This document shows positions 3,001-16,439 of a stretch of 36,982 bases of DNA, piece by piece; within the stretch, counting starts at the first letter, position 1, and every line of letters begins with the position of its first letter. Below the pieces are notes generated by a model. The model was not told the DNA's origin, made no database searches, and was given only the letters and a program-made list of their open reading frames with translations. The DNA comes from a candidate division CSSED10-310 bacterium (GTDB lineage Bacteria; CSSED10-310). The position numbers and the translations under genes are program-made. The DNA lies in assembly GCA_016927515.1 (NCBI GenBank), contig JAFGMN010000141.1, positions 1 through 36,982 of the forward strand, given 5' to 3'.

Positions 3001-5051
3001 GCGGTAATCCGGGCGTGCAGGTCTACTACGGATTTTTCGATGACGAGGAATGGTTGTTGTCATCACCGGTGAACTTTGTTGATCCATCCGGCTTGGACCA
3101 CAATTACGGATTGATCGGCATGGATTTCAACCTCGATAACCGGCCGGACTTTATTGTCGGTGAAGATGGTCATGCATGCACCACGTATATTGGATTCTCC
3201 GGTCTCTCACTGGAATGCAATTTTGGGTTTACCGGTTTGGGCTTCGGAAAAATCCGGGATTTGGATACCGATGACCTGAACAACGATGGCTATCCCGATG
3301 TCGTGATTGCGACGGAACAAAATGGTGTCCTGGCATATAAAACAATTCCCGGTTATCCGGGGTTACCATCTTTTGGTTTCGCCCCGATCACGCATCCCGC
3401 AAACAATGGGGATTATGTGGGTATTACCGTCGCCGATTTTACGAGCGACGGATTACCTGATGTTATCGCTGCGAGAAATCAGGATTCCGGCGTATCCGGC
3501 ATCGATATGTGGATCAGTTATCGCGACTTTACCATGGCCAAGGTGAATTCGACCTATCCGTCTGACGGTGGAGAATTTAATGTCGGTGCGGATTCATCCA
3601 TTTATGTGAATTTTTCAGAGCCAATGGATCCTGCAACGATGACCTACGATAACATACAGCTGACACGAGAAGGCGAACCGGTCGGGTATTCGTTCATTAT
3701 GGTCAATAATAACGACCGGTTACAGATAACTCCCGCCAAGATGATCCGTGATCAGGAGTATGCGGTTCGCATCGTGGGAGGACCGAACGGCGTTCGGGAC
3801 AGCAACGGCAACATGTTCGACGGCAATTTCAACAATCAGGCGGATCCGTCGCCTGTTGACGATTTCGAGTTCACATTCACAACAGTCGATCGCGTGAAAC
3901 CTTCGATCCCAATCGGTTTGATCGTAACCCCTGGTGATGCATCCGCGACAGTCCAGTGGACCGCAAACTCCCATCCAATACTCGATGAGGATCTGGATGG
4001 ATACTATGTCATCTGGGAACTGGCCGATGAATCGGAAGATATTAAATACTCCTTCTATTCAAAAGAAGAACTGGGATCTCCTCCACGTATAACAATCCGG
4101 GGCTTGTCAAATGAACTCGAGATTCTGTGCTCCGTTGTAGCGAAAGATTTCACCGGGAATGAATCGAGTTTCAGCGAGAAAGTTCCGGTGATTCCTCAGC
4201 CGGTCCGGCCTCAGATCTGGTGGGCCGGGATGTACGATTCCCTGATTCAATCATCGGCCGGTGGAGAAATGTCTATTGTTGCTTACGTCTTCGATTATCA
4301 GGGCGATACCGAATCGGTCGAATTGTATTTCAACGATCTGCCCACCGGGGTATTTCTCCAGGATGGCGGTCATCCCGACTTCCCTCCAGGACTGGGATTA
4401 TATGCCCTGTATGCGCCACTCGGGCCACTCAATACCGGATTTGTCCAGTTCCCCTTCCAACTGGTCGCGCATGACATCTCCGGGAACCACAGTCTGATGT
4501 GGCCGTATTTTCATGTTCAAAAGAATATTCCCGGCGGGGAACAATCATCCTCCAAAGCAATGCCCGAAATCGGGTCGTGGGAGAGCTATTTTGCACATCG
4601 AAACCAGGAGTTTATCGCTCGAACGACCATCCCATTCGATCGAGCCCAGCCATCGATTTCGCCCAATCGGCCGCAGATTCTCTGCGCCGGTTATAGCGCT
4701 CATCCCGAAGCCGATTACGAGTGGGGCGCACGGCACTGGTTGACCGCCATCATACTCGATCCGAATAATCCCTCCGGCGGACACGACATGGCCTATGTCG
4801 ATTTATTCATCAATGGCACTCCCGCCTACCGGCTAGGCGCATCCGGAATCGCCAACGAAGGATTCATCGACGAACTCAATTTAACCCCGGTTCTGTGGGG
4901 TATCGACTTGAGCTGGTATGGCTCTGAAAACGATCCGGACGGCCCGGAGGGCGAGAATCACTGGCCGGCCGGTCCGCAGTTCCTAGAAATTCAGGCCGTC
5001 GATCGACAAGGCAATGCCAGCGATATCTGGCCGAATTTCACGATCAACTAA
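60..5051 (+). CDS. Giant secreted FG-GAP/VCBS-repeat protein with Big_5/Ig-like, FN3-like and duplicated C-terminal domains
   Basis: ORF 21..5051; likely start ATG at 60 giving signal peptide MRKLIIFMLLSGFAWGIVPSAEA. About 14 repeats of the D.(D/N).DG..D(I/V)(V/I) type (e.g. IADFNTDGIPDIVAA, VGDVDRNGWMDVLAG, TGDFNMDGRSDIVAG). 'VNFSEPMDPATMTYDNIQLT' resembles a Big_5 Ig-like domain; an FN3-like segment follows. Confidence 0.9.
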   Translation: MRKLIIFMLLSGFAWGIVPSAEADTQWTDMVSPINHSEWPDIAIADFNTDGIPDIVAANPDASEMFSNYSGLPVWIGRIYNGPAGGYYWGLAGGSNVDGTVASLPIPDPNNIGQAHVACVFTGNTCNMMAEWTFELGGGAGILDVITIQGESTFSAEIPPGVYWPVRFHAMNDRWQFTQIEGSDTFSVSSILHNTQENQMVLGQVYVSDNAEITVLCQRETALHPDEIFEIVTGTVLGGVRGMYRDTYPDYRYLENRDFETEIPPAEWFVDRTNLMGFRYDLPQNFGEIFPGDKYYFHTPLGPFTNNGYIAVEAADINQDGQVDIIGAGPDGIDIFYQAGPSISSVGFIDEPILLDFPPRLDVQLGTPLGYINPSVVYDEVWSVTWQNDRFLVTGEILGSSGPEYYGGESTSYCQEISLMGYSGTDFSNGDRFTFSTKRVNFAARTGPVTANSYSNMAVGDVDRNGWMDVLAGKESGGFDVFTFDGINWTFSSTIPFSGIISDIVLKDVNRDGWLDVVASSNTGIHFWEGLPAGGWSSDKGPAFGRAFLGVTTGDFNKDGYIDIAATEDLAAQTGSIEVFYLTAEETWFQNARATVPVANPNNIGDGFMGMVRVSNTTTVAESWRVVCETAQPDGGLFKVTGSRSGQQAQYARVGELFSSDNSEVEFTLFDGDVDYQVGDFFTFQTGRGPLELRQFGKLDSSDLDNDGNLDLFAVSLENYGVGVWFGNSNYGWTADTPPESSSSWQEINTGHDLNFDGNPDIVVGSYANVGESGSGIKIWTGKHTNENTWTGWIYQLIGTGRFNKIDNGDFNIDGALDVVLACDDESAEGIWVFTGNNLGDFTKVTTSVTTKKGYFSVITGDFNMDGRSDIVAGHKTSGFDVFLTRDDLTWSLSTSSVTLGEVYDLAAADVDHDGDLDLAIAQSYISPDRPGVVVYFNDGNGYFNETNKRILPSALYNHWSVELIDLDVNGALDVVTTNTGGNPGVQVYYGFFDDEEWLLSSPVNFVDPSGLDHNYGLIGMDFNLDNRPDFIVGEDGHACTTYIGFSGLSLECNFGFTGLGFGKIRDLDTDDLNNDGYPDVVIATEQNGVLAYKTIPGYPGLPSFGFAPITHPANNGDYVGITVADFTSDGLPDVIAARNQDSGVSGIDMWISYRDFTMAKVNSTYPSDGGEFNVGADSSIYVNFSEPMDPATMTYDNIQLTREGEPVGYSFIMVNNNDRLQITPAKMIRDQEYAVRIVGGPNGVRDSNGNMFDGNFNNQADPSPVDDFEFTFTTVDRVKPSIPIGLIVTPGDASATVQWTANSHPILDEDLDGYYVIWELADESEDIKYSFYSKEELGSPPRITIRGLSNELEILCSVVAKDFTGNESSFSEKVPVIPQPVRPQIWWAGMYDSLIQSSAGGEMSIVAYVFDYQGDTESVELYFNDLPTGVFLQDGGHPDFPPGLGLYALYAPLGPLNTGFVQFPFQLVAHDISGNHSLMWPYFHVQKNIPGGEQSSSKAMPEIGSWESYFAHRNQEFIARTTIPFDRAQPSISPNRPQILCAGYSAHPEADYEWGARHWLTAIILDPNNPSGGHDMAYVDLFINGTPAYRLGASGIANEGFIDELNLTPVLWGIDLSWYGSENDPDGPEGENHWPAGPQFLEIQAVDRQGNASDIWPNFTIN

Positions 5052-8143: not shown

Positions 8144-8188
8144 TCATCACTCCCCTTTACCAACCGCATGGCACGCAAGGACCAGACC

Positions 8189-10885
8189 ATGAAAAGCTCG
8201 TTTGATATTCGAAAAGAATTTGTCGATTTCTTCACTCAACACGGTCATTCTTATATCCGCGGCACCCCGCTCTTCATTCCCGATGATCCCACACTTCTCT
8301 TCACGAATGCCGGAATGAACCAGTTCAAATCCATTTTCCTCGGGAAAACGCTGCCCGCTATCCCTCGTGCGACCAACTACCAGCGTTGCATGCGTGTCAG
8401 TGGTAAACACAACGATCTCGAAGAGGTCGGTTTTTCACCACACCATCACACGCTGTTCGAAATGCTCGGAAATTGGTCTTTCGGCGATTATTATAAAAAA
8501 GATGCGATTCAATGGGCTTGGACGCTGCTGACGGAAGAATGGGGATTGGATCGAAGTCGTCTGTGGGTAACAGTATTCAAGGATGATCAAAATGAAATCC
8601 CGGAAGATCAGGAGGCCGGAGAAATCTGGCGAACGATGACAACAGTTCCGGAAGATCACATCCGATTCTTCGGCAGGAAAGACAATTTCTGGGAAATGGG
8701 GGATACGGGACCGTGTGGTCCATGCACGGAAATCCACATGGATCGCGGACCCGAATTCTGTGACCGACAGCATATCCCCGGCCATCGATGCGAAGTCAAC
8801 GGTGACTGCCGACGCATCGTCGAAATCTGGAATCTCGTTTTTATCCAGTATAACCGGCTGGATCTTCATACCCTCATCTCTCTCCCATCCCGACACGTCG
8901 ATACGGGAATGGGCCTGGAACGAGTCACCGCTATCCTCCAGGACGCACCAAGCAATTATGATACCGACCTCTTCAAACCCATCATCACAGCCGTTCAAAC
9001 TCTCTCCAACCAATCTTTCACCAATCGCAATCATCATATTCACGCCTATCGGGTCATCGCTGACCATATCCGAGCAGCGTCTTTCCTCCTGACGGACGGT
9101 GTCCTGCCTTCCAATGAATGGCGCGGTTATGTTCTCCGACGCATCATCCGCCGCGCCGTCCGCTTCGGAACAAAAATCGGCTTCTCCTCTCCTTTCCTGC
9201 ATGCCGTGGCTACCACCTTCATCAAAGAAATGGCTCCCGTTTATCCCGAATTGGAGGAAGCACGGTCCCATATCCAATCCGTTCTCAATGCAGAAGAAGA
9301 ACGCTTCTTTAAAACGTTGGATCAGGGTTTGCCATTGGTGAATGATGCGATTACATCCATACGAAGTCACGGCGGTTCGATTCTCCCCGGTGAAGACGCT
9401 TTTAAATTCTACGATACGTTTGGTTTTCCTCTCGATATTACTCGTGAAATCGCGGAGGAATCCGGTTTGACTGTCGATGAAGCAGGTTTTCAGAATGCCA
9501 TGAACCAGCAGAAAACCCGTGCACGTACCGCCTGGAAAGCCGGGGAAACCCGTTCATCCGATTCCGATGTATGGCAACATGTGGCTGCCCACGTCGGTTC
9601 CATCTCGTTTACAGGGTATGCCACTCTGCAGGAAAACAGCCGCGTTCGAGCCATTATCGACACTGATCACACCGTGGAATCGGTGTCTGAAACCAACAAA
9701 ATCATCGGGATCATTATCGATCCGAATCCATTCTATGCAGAATCCGGTGGGCAGATCGGTGATTGTGGTCGATTGGAATCCCCCAGCAGCCGCCTCAAAG
9801 TCCTCGATACACAAGCGCCCATAAAGGGCCTAGCGGTTCTTCACTGCCAACTGATCGATGGCACACTCCGTGTTGGTGATTCGGTTGCCGCACATGTCAT
9901 GACACCTCGACGTCAAGCCATCGCTCGCAACCATACCGCAACGCACCTTCTCCATCGCGCGCTTCGCGATGTGTTGGGTGATCATGTAAAGCAATCCGGA
10001 TCACTTGTGACCGAAGACCGGTTGCGCTTCGATTTCACTCACCATTCCAGCGTCTCACCAGAAGATCTTCTCGAAATCGAGCGACGCGTGAATCATCAAG
10101 TGTTGCAGGATTTTGCCGTGGAAACGCACATAATGCCATTGGATGATGCTCTTGAAAGTGGAGTCATGGCGCTGTTCGGCGAGCGGTATGAGGATCAGGT
10201 TCGCGTGGTCAGGATCGATTCGGTGTCTGCCGAATTGTGTGGCGGAACCCACGTTTCGAGAACCGGTCAAATCGGGTTGCTGAAGATTGTTTCTGAAGTC
10301 AGCGTGGCTGCCGGCGTACGAAGAATCGAGGCAATAACCGGTCTGAAGACTTTCGAAAGACTCACGGAAACCGAAGCGCTGCTACGGAAAATTGCGGATA
10401 TACTAAAATCGCCTTTGGATCACATTCCGGACCGCATCGAAAAATACCAAAAGCAAATCCGGTCGTTATCTCGGGACGTTGAACACTATCAGTATCTCTC
10501 AGCTCGTCAGGCAATCGACGATAAACTGAAGAACCCGGATTTCATCGAAAAAATCCCCGCTGTTATTCAATTCATCCCGGGTATTCAGCAGGTTCAACTC
10601 CGGGATCTTGCTGATCAGGTGAAATCCAAACTCGGCTCCGGTCTGACGGTTCTGGCAACCAGAAACGATGACAAAGTCTTTTTGATCGCTGCGGTCACTC
10701 CGGATTTGATCTCAACTATCCATGCCGGAAAATTGGTTGGGCAGGTTGCGAAATTAGTGGGGGGGGGAGGGGGCGGCCGTCCTGATATGGCCCAAGCCGG
10801 CGGATCCCAACCGGAAAGAATCGATGATGCGCTGCGGTCGGTTCCCGGAATCGTCGCTTGCATGATTAAGGAAAAGGGAGACTGA
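8189..10885 (+). CDS. alaS: Alanine--tRNA ligase
   Basis: 'FTNAGMNQFKSIFLG', 'HHTLFEMLGNWSFGDYYKKDAI', 'HTATHLLHRALRDVLG', 'ELCGGTHVSRTGQIG', C-terminal 'GGGGGGRPDMAQAGG'. Confidence 0.98.
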   Translation: MKSSFDIRKEFVDFFTQHGHSYIRGTPLFIPDDPTLLFTNAGMNQFKSIFLGKTLPAIPRATNYQRCMRVSGKHNDLEEVGFSPHHHTLFEMLGNWSFGDYYKKDAIQWAWTLLTEEWGLDRSRLWVTVFKDDQNEIPEDQEAGEIWRTMTTVPEDHIRFFGRKDNFWEMGDTGPCGPCTEIHMDRGPEFCDRQHIPGHRCEVNGDCRRIVEIWNLVFIQYNRLDLHTLISLPSRHVDTGMGLERVTAILQDAPSNYDTDLFKPIITAVQTLSNQSFTNRNHHIHAYRVIADHIRAASFLLTDGVLPSNEWRGYVLRRIIRRAVRFGTKIGFSSPFLHAVATTFIKEMAPVYPELEEARSHIQSVLNAEEERFFKTLDQGLPLVNDAITSIRSHGGSILPGEDAFKFYDTFGFPLDITREIAEESGLTVDEAGFQNAMNQQKTRARTAWKAGETRSSDSDVWQHVAAHVGSISFTGYATLQENSRVRAIIDTDHTVESVSETNKIIGIIIDPNPFYAESGGQIGDCGRLESPSSRLKVLDTQAPIKGLAVLHCQLIDGTLRVGDSVAAHVMTPRRQAIARNHTATHLLHRALRDVLGDHVKQSGSLVTEDRLRFDFTHHSSVSPEDLLEIERRVNHQVLQDFAVETHIMPLDDALESGVMALFGERYEDQVRVVRIDSVSAELCGGTHVSRTGQIGLLKIVSEVSVAAGVRRIEAITGLKTFERLTETEALLRKIADILKSPLDHIPDRIEKYQKQIRSLSRDVEHYQYLSARQAIDDKLKNPDFIEKIPAVIQFIPGIQQVQLRDLADQVKSKLGSGLTVLATRNDDKVFLIAAVTPDLISTIHAGKLVGQVAKLVGGGGGGRPDMAQAGGSQPERIDDALRSVPGIVACMIKEKGD

Positions 10886-10888
10886 TGC

Positions 10889-11707
10889 ATGGATGGAGAG
10901 AAGCGGAATCCATTACCAGATGATATCGTCAAGCGTATCGATGAATATGACCGGAATCTGGATGTTTGGTCGCATTACGATTTACTGTATATACCCAGGA
11001 ATTCCGACAAGGCTCAAATCAAGAAAGGGTATTATAAAATTGTCCAATTGATGCATCCGGATCGGTATGGACTTGACCTGGATGAAGAACATAAAGACAA
11101 ACTGGAAAGAATCTTCAACGAAATCAACATTGCCTATCACACGTTGATGGATGATGAATCAAAAGCCAGATACGATCAATCTCTCTACCGAGCGGAAGAC
11201 CACAATCAACCGTTGAAAGAAACAAATGATAAAGTCGTCGCCCGAGCCCAATACAATCGTGGAGTAAAAGCGCTTAAGGAAAATGATGTTGTTCCCGCAA
11301 TCGAGTTCTTCCGTTCCGCAACCGAATTGGATTCTGAAAAAGCCGATTACTGGGCTAAACTCGCTTTTGCCCTCGCAAAGCATAAAAATCCACGCGTGCG
11401 GAAAGATGCAATCCCACCTTGCCAAAAAGCCATCTCTATGCAAAATGAAAATGCCAACTACCATGCATTGATGGGCTTCATCCACCAACAACTCAACGAT
11501 CTGAACGAAGCGAAAGTCCATTACCGTCGTGCCCTGTCATGGGATCCGCAACATCAACGTTCCCGCCAGGAACTGCAGAAAATATCCCAGCAAGTCAGCG
11601 ATGAAAAAAAACAGAACTCCATCGCACACAAAATTATGAAAATTCTAAAACCTTCACGTAAAGCGCCACCCCCTCCCCGACAGCGTCCTCCACAAAAAAA
11701 AGCATGA
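10889..11707 (+). CDS. J-domain (DnaJ-like) protein with TPR repeats
   Basis: J-domain 'HYDLLYIPRNSDKAQIKKGYYKIVQLMHPDRYG' with HPD motif; TPR-like region 'AQYNRGVKALKENDVVPAIEFFRSATELD...LNEAKVHYRRALSWDP'. Confidence 0.88.
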   Translation: MDGEKRNPLPDDIVKRIDEYDRNLDVWSHYDLLYIPRNSDKAQIKKGYYKIVQLMHPDRYGLDLDEEHKDKLERIFNEINIAYHTLMDDESKARYDQSLYRAEDHNQPLKETNDKVVARAQYNRGVKALKENDVVPAIEFFRSATELDSEKADYWAKLAFALAKHKNPRVRKDAIPPCQKAISMQNENANYHALMGFIHQQLNDLNEAKVHYRRALSWDPQHQRSRQELQKISQQVSDEKKQNSIAHKIMKILKPSRKAPPPPRQRPPQKKA

Positions 11708-11708
11708 C

Positions 11709-12464
11709 ATGATACGAATTATCAACATATGGAAATCGTTTGGAACCCAAACCGTTCTCAAAGGGATCCATCTCCATGTTAAAGAAAAGGAAAGCGTTGT
11801 CATTTGCGGCCCCGGAGGCAGCGGGAAAACTCTGCTAATGAAAATCTGCCAAGGACTCGTCCGTCCCGACTCCGGTGAAGTCTACATAAAAAATCGGAAT
11901 ATCCTCCAGATGTCCGAGGACGAACTGATGGAATTGCGCCTGGATATCGGGATGCTATTCCAGAACTATGCCCTGTTCGATTCCATGACCGTCGCCGAAA
12001 ACATTGGGTTTTATTTAGCGAATCATACACGCATGGAATCAGAAGCCATCCGGCAACACGTTACAGAAAATTTGAAAATGGTTCATCTCCACGGATCCGA
12101 AAATTTGATGCCCTCCGAACTCTCGGGAGGTATGCAGAAACGAGTCGGCATCGCACGGGCTCTTGTCCATCGACCGTCTATCATGTTCTACGACTCCCCT
12201 ACCGATGGACTGGATCCCGTGACAACAGACGCCATCATCGATCGCATGAGCGACATTAAAAACAGTCTGAATGTCACATCACTGATCATCTCTAATGATA
12301 TGAATACCGCATTCCGTTTGGGCGATCGGATCGCTCTGCTCTGCGATGGTGTTATCCGGACGATCGAGCCTCCGGAAACCATGAGGATGTCACGTGATCC
12401 CTATGTCTATCAATTCATCCGTGGGTTGGGTGAAGGCCCACTGTATCAGTCGGTCTCACCGTAA
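11709..12464 (+). CDS. MlaF-like ABC transporter ATP-binding protein with noncanonical Walker B and H-loop
   Basis: Walker A GPGGSGKTLLMK; Q-loop GMLFQNYALFDSMTV; signature LMPSELSGGMQKRVGIARAL; C-terminal DPYVYQFIRGLGEGPL is MlaF-like. Walker B reads MFYDSPTDGLDP and H-loop ISNDMNTA. No MlaE/MlaD genes in window. Confidence 0.85.
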   Translation: MIRIINIWKSFGTQTVLKGIHLHVKEKESVVICGPGGSGKTLLMKICQGLVRPDSGEVYIKNRNILQMSEDELMELRLDIGMLFQNYALFDSMTVAENIGFYLANHTRMESEAIRQHVTENLKMVHLHGSENLMPSELSGGMQKRVGIARALVHRPSIMFYDSPTDGLDPVTTDAIIDRMSDIKNSLNVTSLIISNDMNTAFRLGDRIALLCDGVIRTIEPPETMRMSRDPYVYQFIRGLGEGPLYQSVSP

Positions 12465-16029: not shown

Positions 16030-16091
16030 TTGACTCGAACGGTTGAATGCACATAATGGTTTGTGGGGGCAATCGAACGATGGAGGAAAAA

Positions 16092-16439
16092 ATGACCACA
16101 CAATCAAACAGCGACAGACGGCGATCCGAACGATTTAAAACGATCAATTTTGTTTCCTACCGCGATAAAGACGATCAGGGTTCAGTAATCGCTGAAGGAA
16201 TGGCTAAAACCTTGGATATTTCGTTGAATGGAGCCATGATCGAGTTGCAAGCACCACTCGTGAATCCTCAAACAGCTGAACTTGAATTTGCGCTGGACGA
16301 TGAAGTGGTTTCCCTGCCAGGCCTAGTCATTGATCAGCAGGAAGAATTAAATGGTTCCTGGAAACTGAGGGTCGAATTTAAAAATCTGAAACCGGCGATT
16401 TTGCATAAACTGCAGACATTCATTCTCTCGTTCCGATGA
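16092..16439 (+). CDS. PilZ-domain protein
   Basis: 'SDRRRSERFKTINFVSYRD...AKTLDISLNGAMIEL' matches the PilZ RxxxR...DxSxxG pattern. ATG 16092 preceded by GGAGG. Confidence 0.85.
   Translation: MTTQSNSDRRRSERFKTINFVSYRDKDDQGSVIAEGMAKTLDISLNGAMIELQAPLVNPQTAELEFALDDEVVSLPGLVIDQQEELNGSWKLRVEFKNLKPAILHKLQTFILSFR

Follow-up and report, generated by a model that had tools for sequence, protein, structure and literature searches.

What role is served by an ABC ATPase of the MlaF type in which the catalytic glutamate and the switch histidine have both been replaced, and which is encoded away from a permease gene? This question is raised by a gene at positions 11709–12464 of the window (viz. the whole stretch of 36,982 nucleotides from a candidate division CSSED10-310 bacterium that was analysed), where it lies, like all other window features described here, on the forward strand. 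The assignment of its 251 aa product, here called MlaF-A (this name and MlaF-B are defined in this analysis), is based on the open reading frame and its translation, a Pfam ABC_tran match, sequence matches in PDB, the best of which are MlaF proteins, and an AlphaFold2 model (pLDDT 90.7), whose top Foldseek matches in PDB are Mce1 MceG and MlaF. With the NCBIfam MlaF equivalog model PRK11831 the protein gives 173 bits (E 6e-51), and as this score is below the curated cut-off of 441, it is not an equivalog of the E. coli-type MlaF. The translation and the alignment of orthologs bear out what had been reported from the DNA letters alone, viz. that Walker A (GPGGSGKT, 11808–11831), the Q-loop Gln85 (FQNYA, 11961–11963) and the signature motif LSGGM (12120–12134, within LSGGMQK) are intact, and that Walker B and the switch are altered. 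The Met in such a signature is typical of Mla/TGD-type ATPases (PMC7367683). Walker B reads MFYDSPTDGLDP, and at its end (12192–12197) Asp162 is kept and followed by Ser163 (TCC, 12195–12197) in place of the catalytic Glu; in the switch region (H-loop), IISNDMNT, the His is replaced by Asn196 (AAT, 12294–12296).

The window comes from a metagenome assembly of 360 contigs, 78% complete, and faults of sequencing or assembly that affect both codons could account for these residues. In the sequence-only reading, close homologs with canonical DE and H would have pointed to such an error; the four other genomes of the order (G001–G004) instead carry the replacements, with DSP, DSP, DAP and DSP in Walker B and SND in the switch of all four. 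Residue 163 in the five genomes of the order is thus S/S/S/A/S and residue 196 is Asn in 5/5. As the same residues, or Ala for Ser, are found in four independent genomes at about 54–65% identity, this explanation was rejected and we give it a negligible chance. Outside the order, the MlaF-A proteins of three other members of the phylum (G005, G006 and G007) have DE, DE and DD in Walker B but Asn in the switch. Due to this, Ser or Ala at position 163, which within the sample was found only in the window's order, is to be regarded as a trait of the order, whereas Asn at position 196, present in 8/8 sampled genomes of the phylum, each of which has an MlaF-A copy, is a trait of the phylum; the earlier caveat that a Ser in YDSPT might be a clade trait was thus well placed. 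In 164 canonical MlaFs, 47 alignment columns reach a conservation of 93% or more; among these, the order deviates (in at least 4/5 proteins) only at E163 and H196, which are about 100% conserved in this canonical set, itself selected for having E and H; in a wider set of non-A MlaF copies the switch His is present in 166/169. Identity among the orthologs of the order (55–66%) is similar to that of AlaS and of the J-domain/TPR protein encoded next to it, and that of the canonical MlaF is somewhat higher (65–71%). The limitation of the losses to E163 and H196, together with the AlaS-like identity of the orthologs, indicates that the protein is under constraint and is not decaying.

In a phylogenetic tree built without the trait columns 163, 195 and 196, the window protein falls within a 17-member MlaF-A clade from several phyla (bootstrap 97, SH-aLRT 96). 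Loss of the His marks nearly this entire clade: copies from other phyla have N, S, Q or T at the switch, and one member (L118) retains the His and has DD in Walker B. If the gene were a recent, decaying duplicate of the local canonical MlaF, as could be suggested by the presence of a canonical MlaF in the same genomes and by the lack of the Walker A segment from the G007 copy in its assembly, then MlaF-A should group with the canonical MlaFs of the phylum. However, a clade of this kind is rejected by the AU test (p-AU 0.008), from which it follows that the window gene is not a recent duplicate of the phylum's canonical MlaF; further, the conservation comparable to AlaS and the confinement of damage to two catalytic positions speak against decay, and we consider this origin very improbable. 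For the G007 copy (L082, 7046–7678 of contig C272), the N-terminal part lies just upstream in another frame, and the loss of Walker A reflects a true deletion or a fault of the assembly.

Altered MlaF-like ATPases were also observed elsewhere in the tree. Copies from Myxococcus, Corallococcus and a relative, G035 (L106 and L127, 8001–8711; L075, 7129–7836), have DDP in Walker B and Pro for the switch His (ITPDV), with no mlaE detected in the flanks examined. They were considered as relatives of MlaF-A and rejected, as they nest in the canonical clade and thus represent an independent loss. Two copies from Spirochaetia (Leptospiraceae; L110 and L126) have Asp for the catalytic Glu with the His intact and form a long separate branch; in their flanks, as far as examined, no mlaE was detected.

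The gene arrangements outside the window's phylum are informative in regard to a possible partner. Here MlaF-A is usually accompanied by a second ATPase, MlaF-B, which forms one clade in the tree built without the trait columns (support 99/96), and a tandem mlaE pair is present in 9/9 MlaF-A-carrying genomes examined. In G047, G156 and G294, MlaF-A is followed by MlaF-B, with two MlaE and an MCE gene; the order is A-E-E-B-D in one locus from Myxococcales (L155) and A-E-E in two others (L140 and L118). However, in G389, G253 and G580 (the genome of L175), MlaF-A lies apart and an mlaE-mlaE-MlaF-B-mlaD cluster is found elsewhere in the genome, which shows that the partners need not adjoin. When 386 genomes were searched with an MlaF-B profile, the four known copies were recovered (408–441 bits), and also a copy in G192, which scores within the canonical range and was outside the training set; in this genome MlaF-A (DD, SNE) directly precedes B (LSFGM), and two MlaE genes follow. 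In these proteins the damage is reciprocal. The signature is intact in 16/16 MlaF-A copies scored; MlaF-B keeps Glu and His in 8/8, and its signature is damaged in 6/8 (LSYGM, LSFGM, LGDGM in three, and LGAGL), the other two having VSGGM and ISGGM. Damage of this kind is seen in 1/169 other MlaFs (Fisher p 5e-9, a value that ignores relatedness, compares sets gathered by similarity and is indicative only). The A and B proteins were collected by similarity searches over overlapping sets and are not an exhaustive census. Among the canonical MlaFs, signature damage (LSVGQ) was seen once, in G007, a member of the window's phylum that also has an MlaF-A copy. This would fit a pairing of the two proteins, but the clue is weak, as the MlaF-A of this genome is without its Walker A segment.

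Within the window's order, the sequence-only reading had described the gene as an orphan, and this holds only in part. It is detached from the permease, and the statement that no MlaE or MlaD gene lies nearby is true within the window. However, mlaE and an incomplete canonical mlaF were found elsewhere in the assembly (G000): mlaE is located on contig C98 adjoining dnaB, and downstream of it a canonical mlaF begins and can be read for 20 codons up to the contig edge, MNKNRNTDIAITIRNLRKAF; these match the beginning of its canonical counterpart in G002, DISIRIRDLRKAF. An MCE-domain gene on contig C263 (184–834; L032/L063), apart from any mlaE, encodes a short protein with a lipoprotein-typical signal cysteine. 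In G002–G004 the operon is dnaB-mlaE-mlaF-mlaD (mlaD by its MlaD Pfam match) and its MlaF is canonical (DEPTT/THDM). Exactly one mlaE is present in each of G000, G002, G003 and G004, and none was seen in G001, whose genome is 60% complete. Neither MlaF-B nor a tandem mlaE was found in the order or in the sampled genomes of the phylum, and an MlaF with intact Glu and His but altered signature was likewise not found in the order, where the canonical copies of G002–G004 keep an intact LSGGM and that of G000 ends at the contig edge. The proximity of dnaB and mlaE recurs in several phyla (G000:C98; L066–L069, L071, L081, L083 and L084), and the association of this replication helicase gene with the Mla operon is apparently old. 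In G005, a separate mlaE-mlaF-mlaD operon (L290; contig C42, 4248–5793; MCE gene 3259–4251) encodes, next to the permease, a still more degenerate MlaF with a broken Walker A (GRSGSGLTS), an LHPIE D-loop and no switch His (TSTII).

The presence of a canonical MlaF beside mlaE also bears on the explanation that the window protein is an ordinary but slow MlaF, whose homodimers hydrolyse ATP with Ser163 and Asn196 and which serves as a spare ATPase for MlaE. The rest of the fold is normal, as seen in the AlphaFold model and the Foldseek matches, and some ABC ATPases with altered Walker B residues show residual activity. However, the two catalytic replacements occur jointly in all members of the order, the canonical enzyme is already encoded beside the permease, and a degenerate site without the Glu is described as unable to sustain transport (PMC7544095); hence, we regard this explanation as improbable.

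The location of mlaF-A itself is in a housekeeping row with alaS, without adjoining mlaE or mlaD. The row alaS - J-domain/TPR - (PHP) - mlaF-A - (S8 protease) - pilZ - GDSL - ftsK is conserved in 5/5 genomes of the order, and genes of the alaS/mlaF-A row touch or overlap. In the window, alaS (8168–10885, with the row kept in G001–G004) and the J-domain/TPR gene (10889–11707; Pfam and row comparison) precede mlaF-A, whose start codon is 2 bp past the end of the latter gene, and a gene for a PilZ-domain protein (16047–16439; Pfam and row comparison) follows, as in all five genomes. The J-domain/TPR gene is directly upstream in G000–G002, and a PHP-domain gene lies between the two in G003 and G004. 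This conserved row, with the absence of MlaF-B and a second MlaE from the order and the restriction of the change from Glu to Ser or Ala to the order, favours the main rival explanation, viz. that MlaF-A of the order has left lipid transport and been repurposed as an ATP-binding switch of the alaS row, working with proteins encoded in this row (J-domain/TPR, PilZ) as a homodimer or scaffold that holds ATP without hydrolysing it. However, in G005–G007 the neighbours of mlaF-A differ from those in the alaS row, and due to this there is no constant non-transport partner; across G005–G007, G389, G253 and L175, no constant neighbour of the detached MlaF-A was found. Further, the 47 canonical conserved positions are essentially kept except for the two catalytic ones, including the Q-loop/signature region that serves the permease and the partner's site. 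In view of these results, a repurposed switch appears unlikely, although it merits serious consideration.

The window protein, with its Walker B Glu and H-loop His lost and its Walker A and signature retained, shows the features of a degenerate subunit. In an ABC ATPase dimer, the signature that completes each site comes from the subunit opposite to the one that supplies Walker A, Walker B and the H-loop (PMC7756269). In a dimer of A and B, the B motifs and the signature of A would thus make up one complete site, and the A motifs together with the B signature one degenerate site. Damage to Walker B and the H-loop in one subunit and to the signature in the other is a known hallmark of degenerate-site heterodimers (TAP, CFTR, TM287/288). 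In TAP1/TAP2, TM287/288, TmrAB, CFTR and MRP1, one subunit is without Glu and/or His and keeps its signature, as in MlaF-A, and MlaF-B often has a broken signature, as in these heterodimers; CFTR (ABCC7) has Ser for Glu in its degenerate site, as in the window protein, plus an H-loop change (PMC7756269). However, the ATPase domains of these transporters are fused to transmembrane domains, whereas MlaF-A is a separate protein and its permease would be of the MlaE type, and in the window's order the signature of the partner is intact.

As its relatives in other bacteria go with a partner that is damaged at the complementary motif, the window protein probably forms the passive side of an unequal pair of ATPases; the more specific reading, that it provides the degenerate subunit in an asymmetric MlaF heterodimer and works in trans with the canonical MlaF, has in our estimate an even chance of being correct. 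The residues, the clade trait, the phylogeny, the reciprocal damage to the motifs and the co-occurrence of the genes were observed, whereas the formation of a heterodimer, the binding of ATP, the pairing with the canonical MlaF and the effect on transport are inferred from them. The intact Walker A of MlaF-A would bind ATP without splitting it, and its intact LSGGM would supply the signature to the site at which a competent partner hydrolyses ATP. For other phyla this partner would be MlaF-B, working alongside an MCE protein and a pair of unlike MlaE permeases. As MlaF-B and a second MlaE are not found in the window's order, the likely partner here is encoded in the dnaB-mlaE-mlaF-mlaD operon, viz. 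its canonical MlaF, and the pair would act on the single MlaE. With its own signature intact, this canonical MlaF is still able to homodimerise, making the mixed dimer optional, which suggests that MlaF-A could be a throttle or regulator: by leaving one working site, it may slow or regulate lipid transport. It should also be stated that, due to the intact LSGGM of the order's canonical MlaFs, nothing in the sequence forces the pairing, that unequal ATPases on a homodimeric MlaE would be unusual, and that the place of the gene in the alaS row, away from the mla genes, also counts against this reading. Of the three options offered earlier, a heteromeric partner fits best, as relatives have a reciprocally damaged MlaF and two MlaE; slow hydrolysis and a nucleotide sensor fit less well.

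Among known systems, the MlaF of MlaFEDB (E. coli, P. aeruginosa and A. baumannii; PDB 6XGY, 6XBD, 7CH8 and 7D06) has a similar fold (TM-score 0.9, about 33–36% identity) and shares with the window protein the LSGGM with Met, the Q-loop and Walker A; the window protein differs in being without the catalytic Glu and switch His and in its location outside an mla operon. The best structural match is another MlaF-like ATPase, MceG of the mycobacterial Mce1 system (8FED). MceG is a single ATPase that serves Mce1 as a homodimer, and Mce1, with YrbEA/B, may already exemplify an MCE system that has two permeases. In the known system MlaF is homodimeric and goes with MlaB (PMC7367683), and in the literature searched (open-licence papers only) no description of an MlaF heterodimer or of an asymmetric Mla/MCE ATPase was found. 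Published surveys find MlaF through synteny with other mla genes (PMC10665443), and detached copies such as that in the window would be missed by them. It is conceivable, though we hold it at somewhat below even chances, that these proteins represent an undescribed class of MCE transporter with a heterodimeric MlaF-A/MlaF-B ATPase, one degenerate site and two MlaE, and that in the window's phylum a separated MlaF-A has become an in-trans throttle on the canonical MlaFED. The Mla/MCE systems have a central part in the lipid traffic of the outer membrane, and in the MlaF structures solved the ATPase dimer is symmetric. A lineage in which MlaF-A and MlaF-B carry reciprocal damage would offer a natural test of whether a single hydrolytic site suffices and of what determines the direction of transport.
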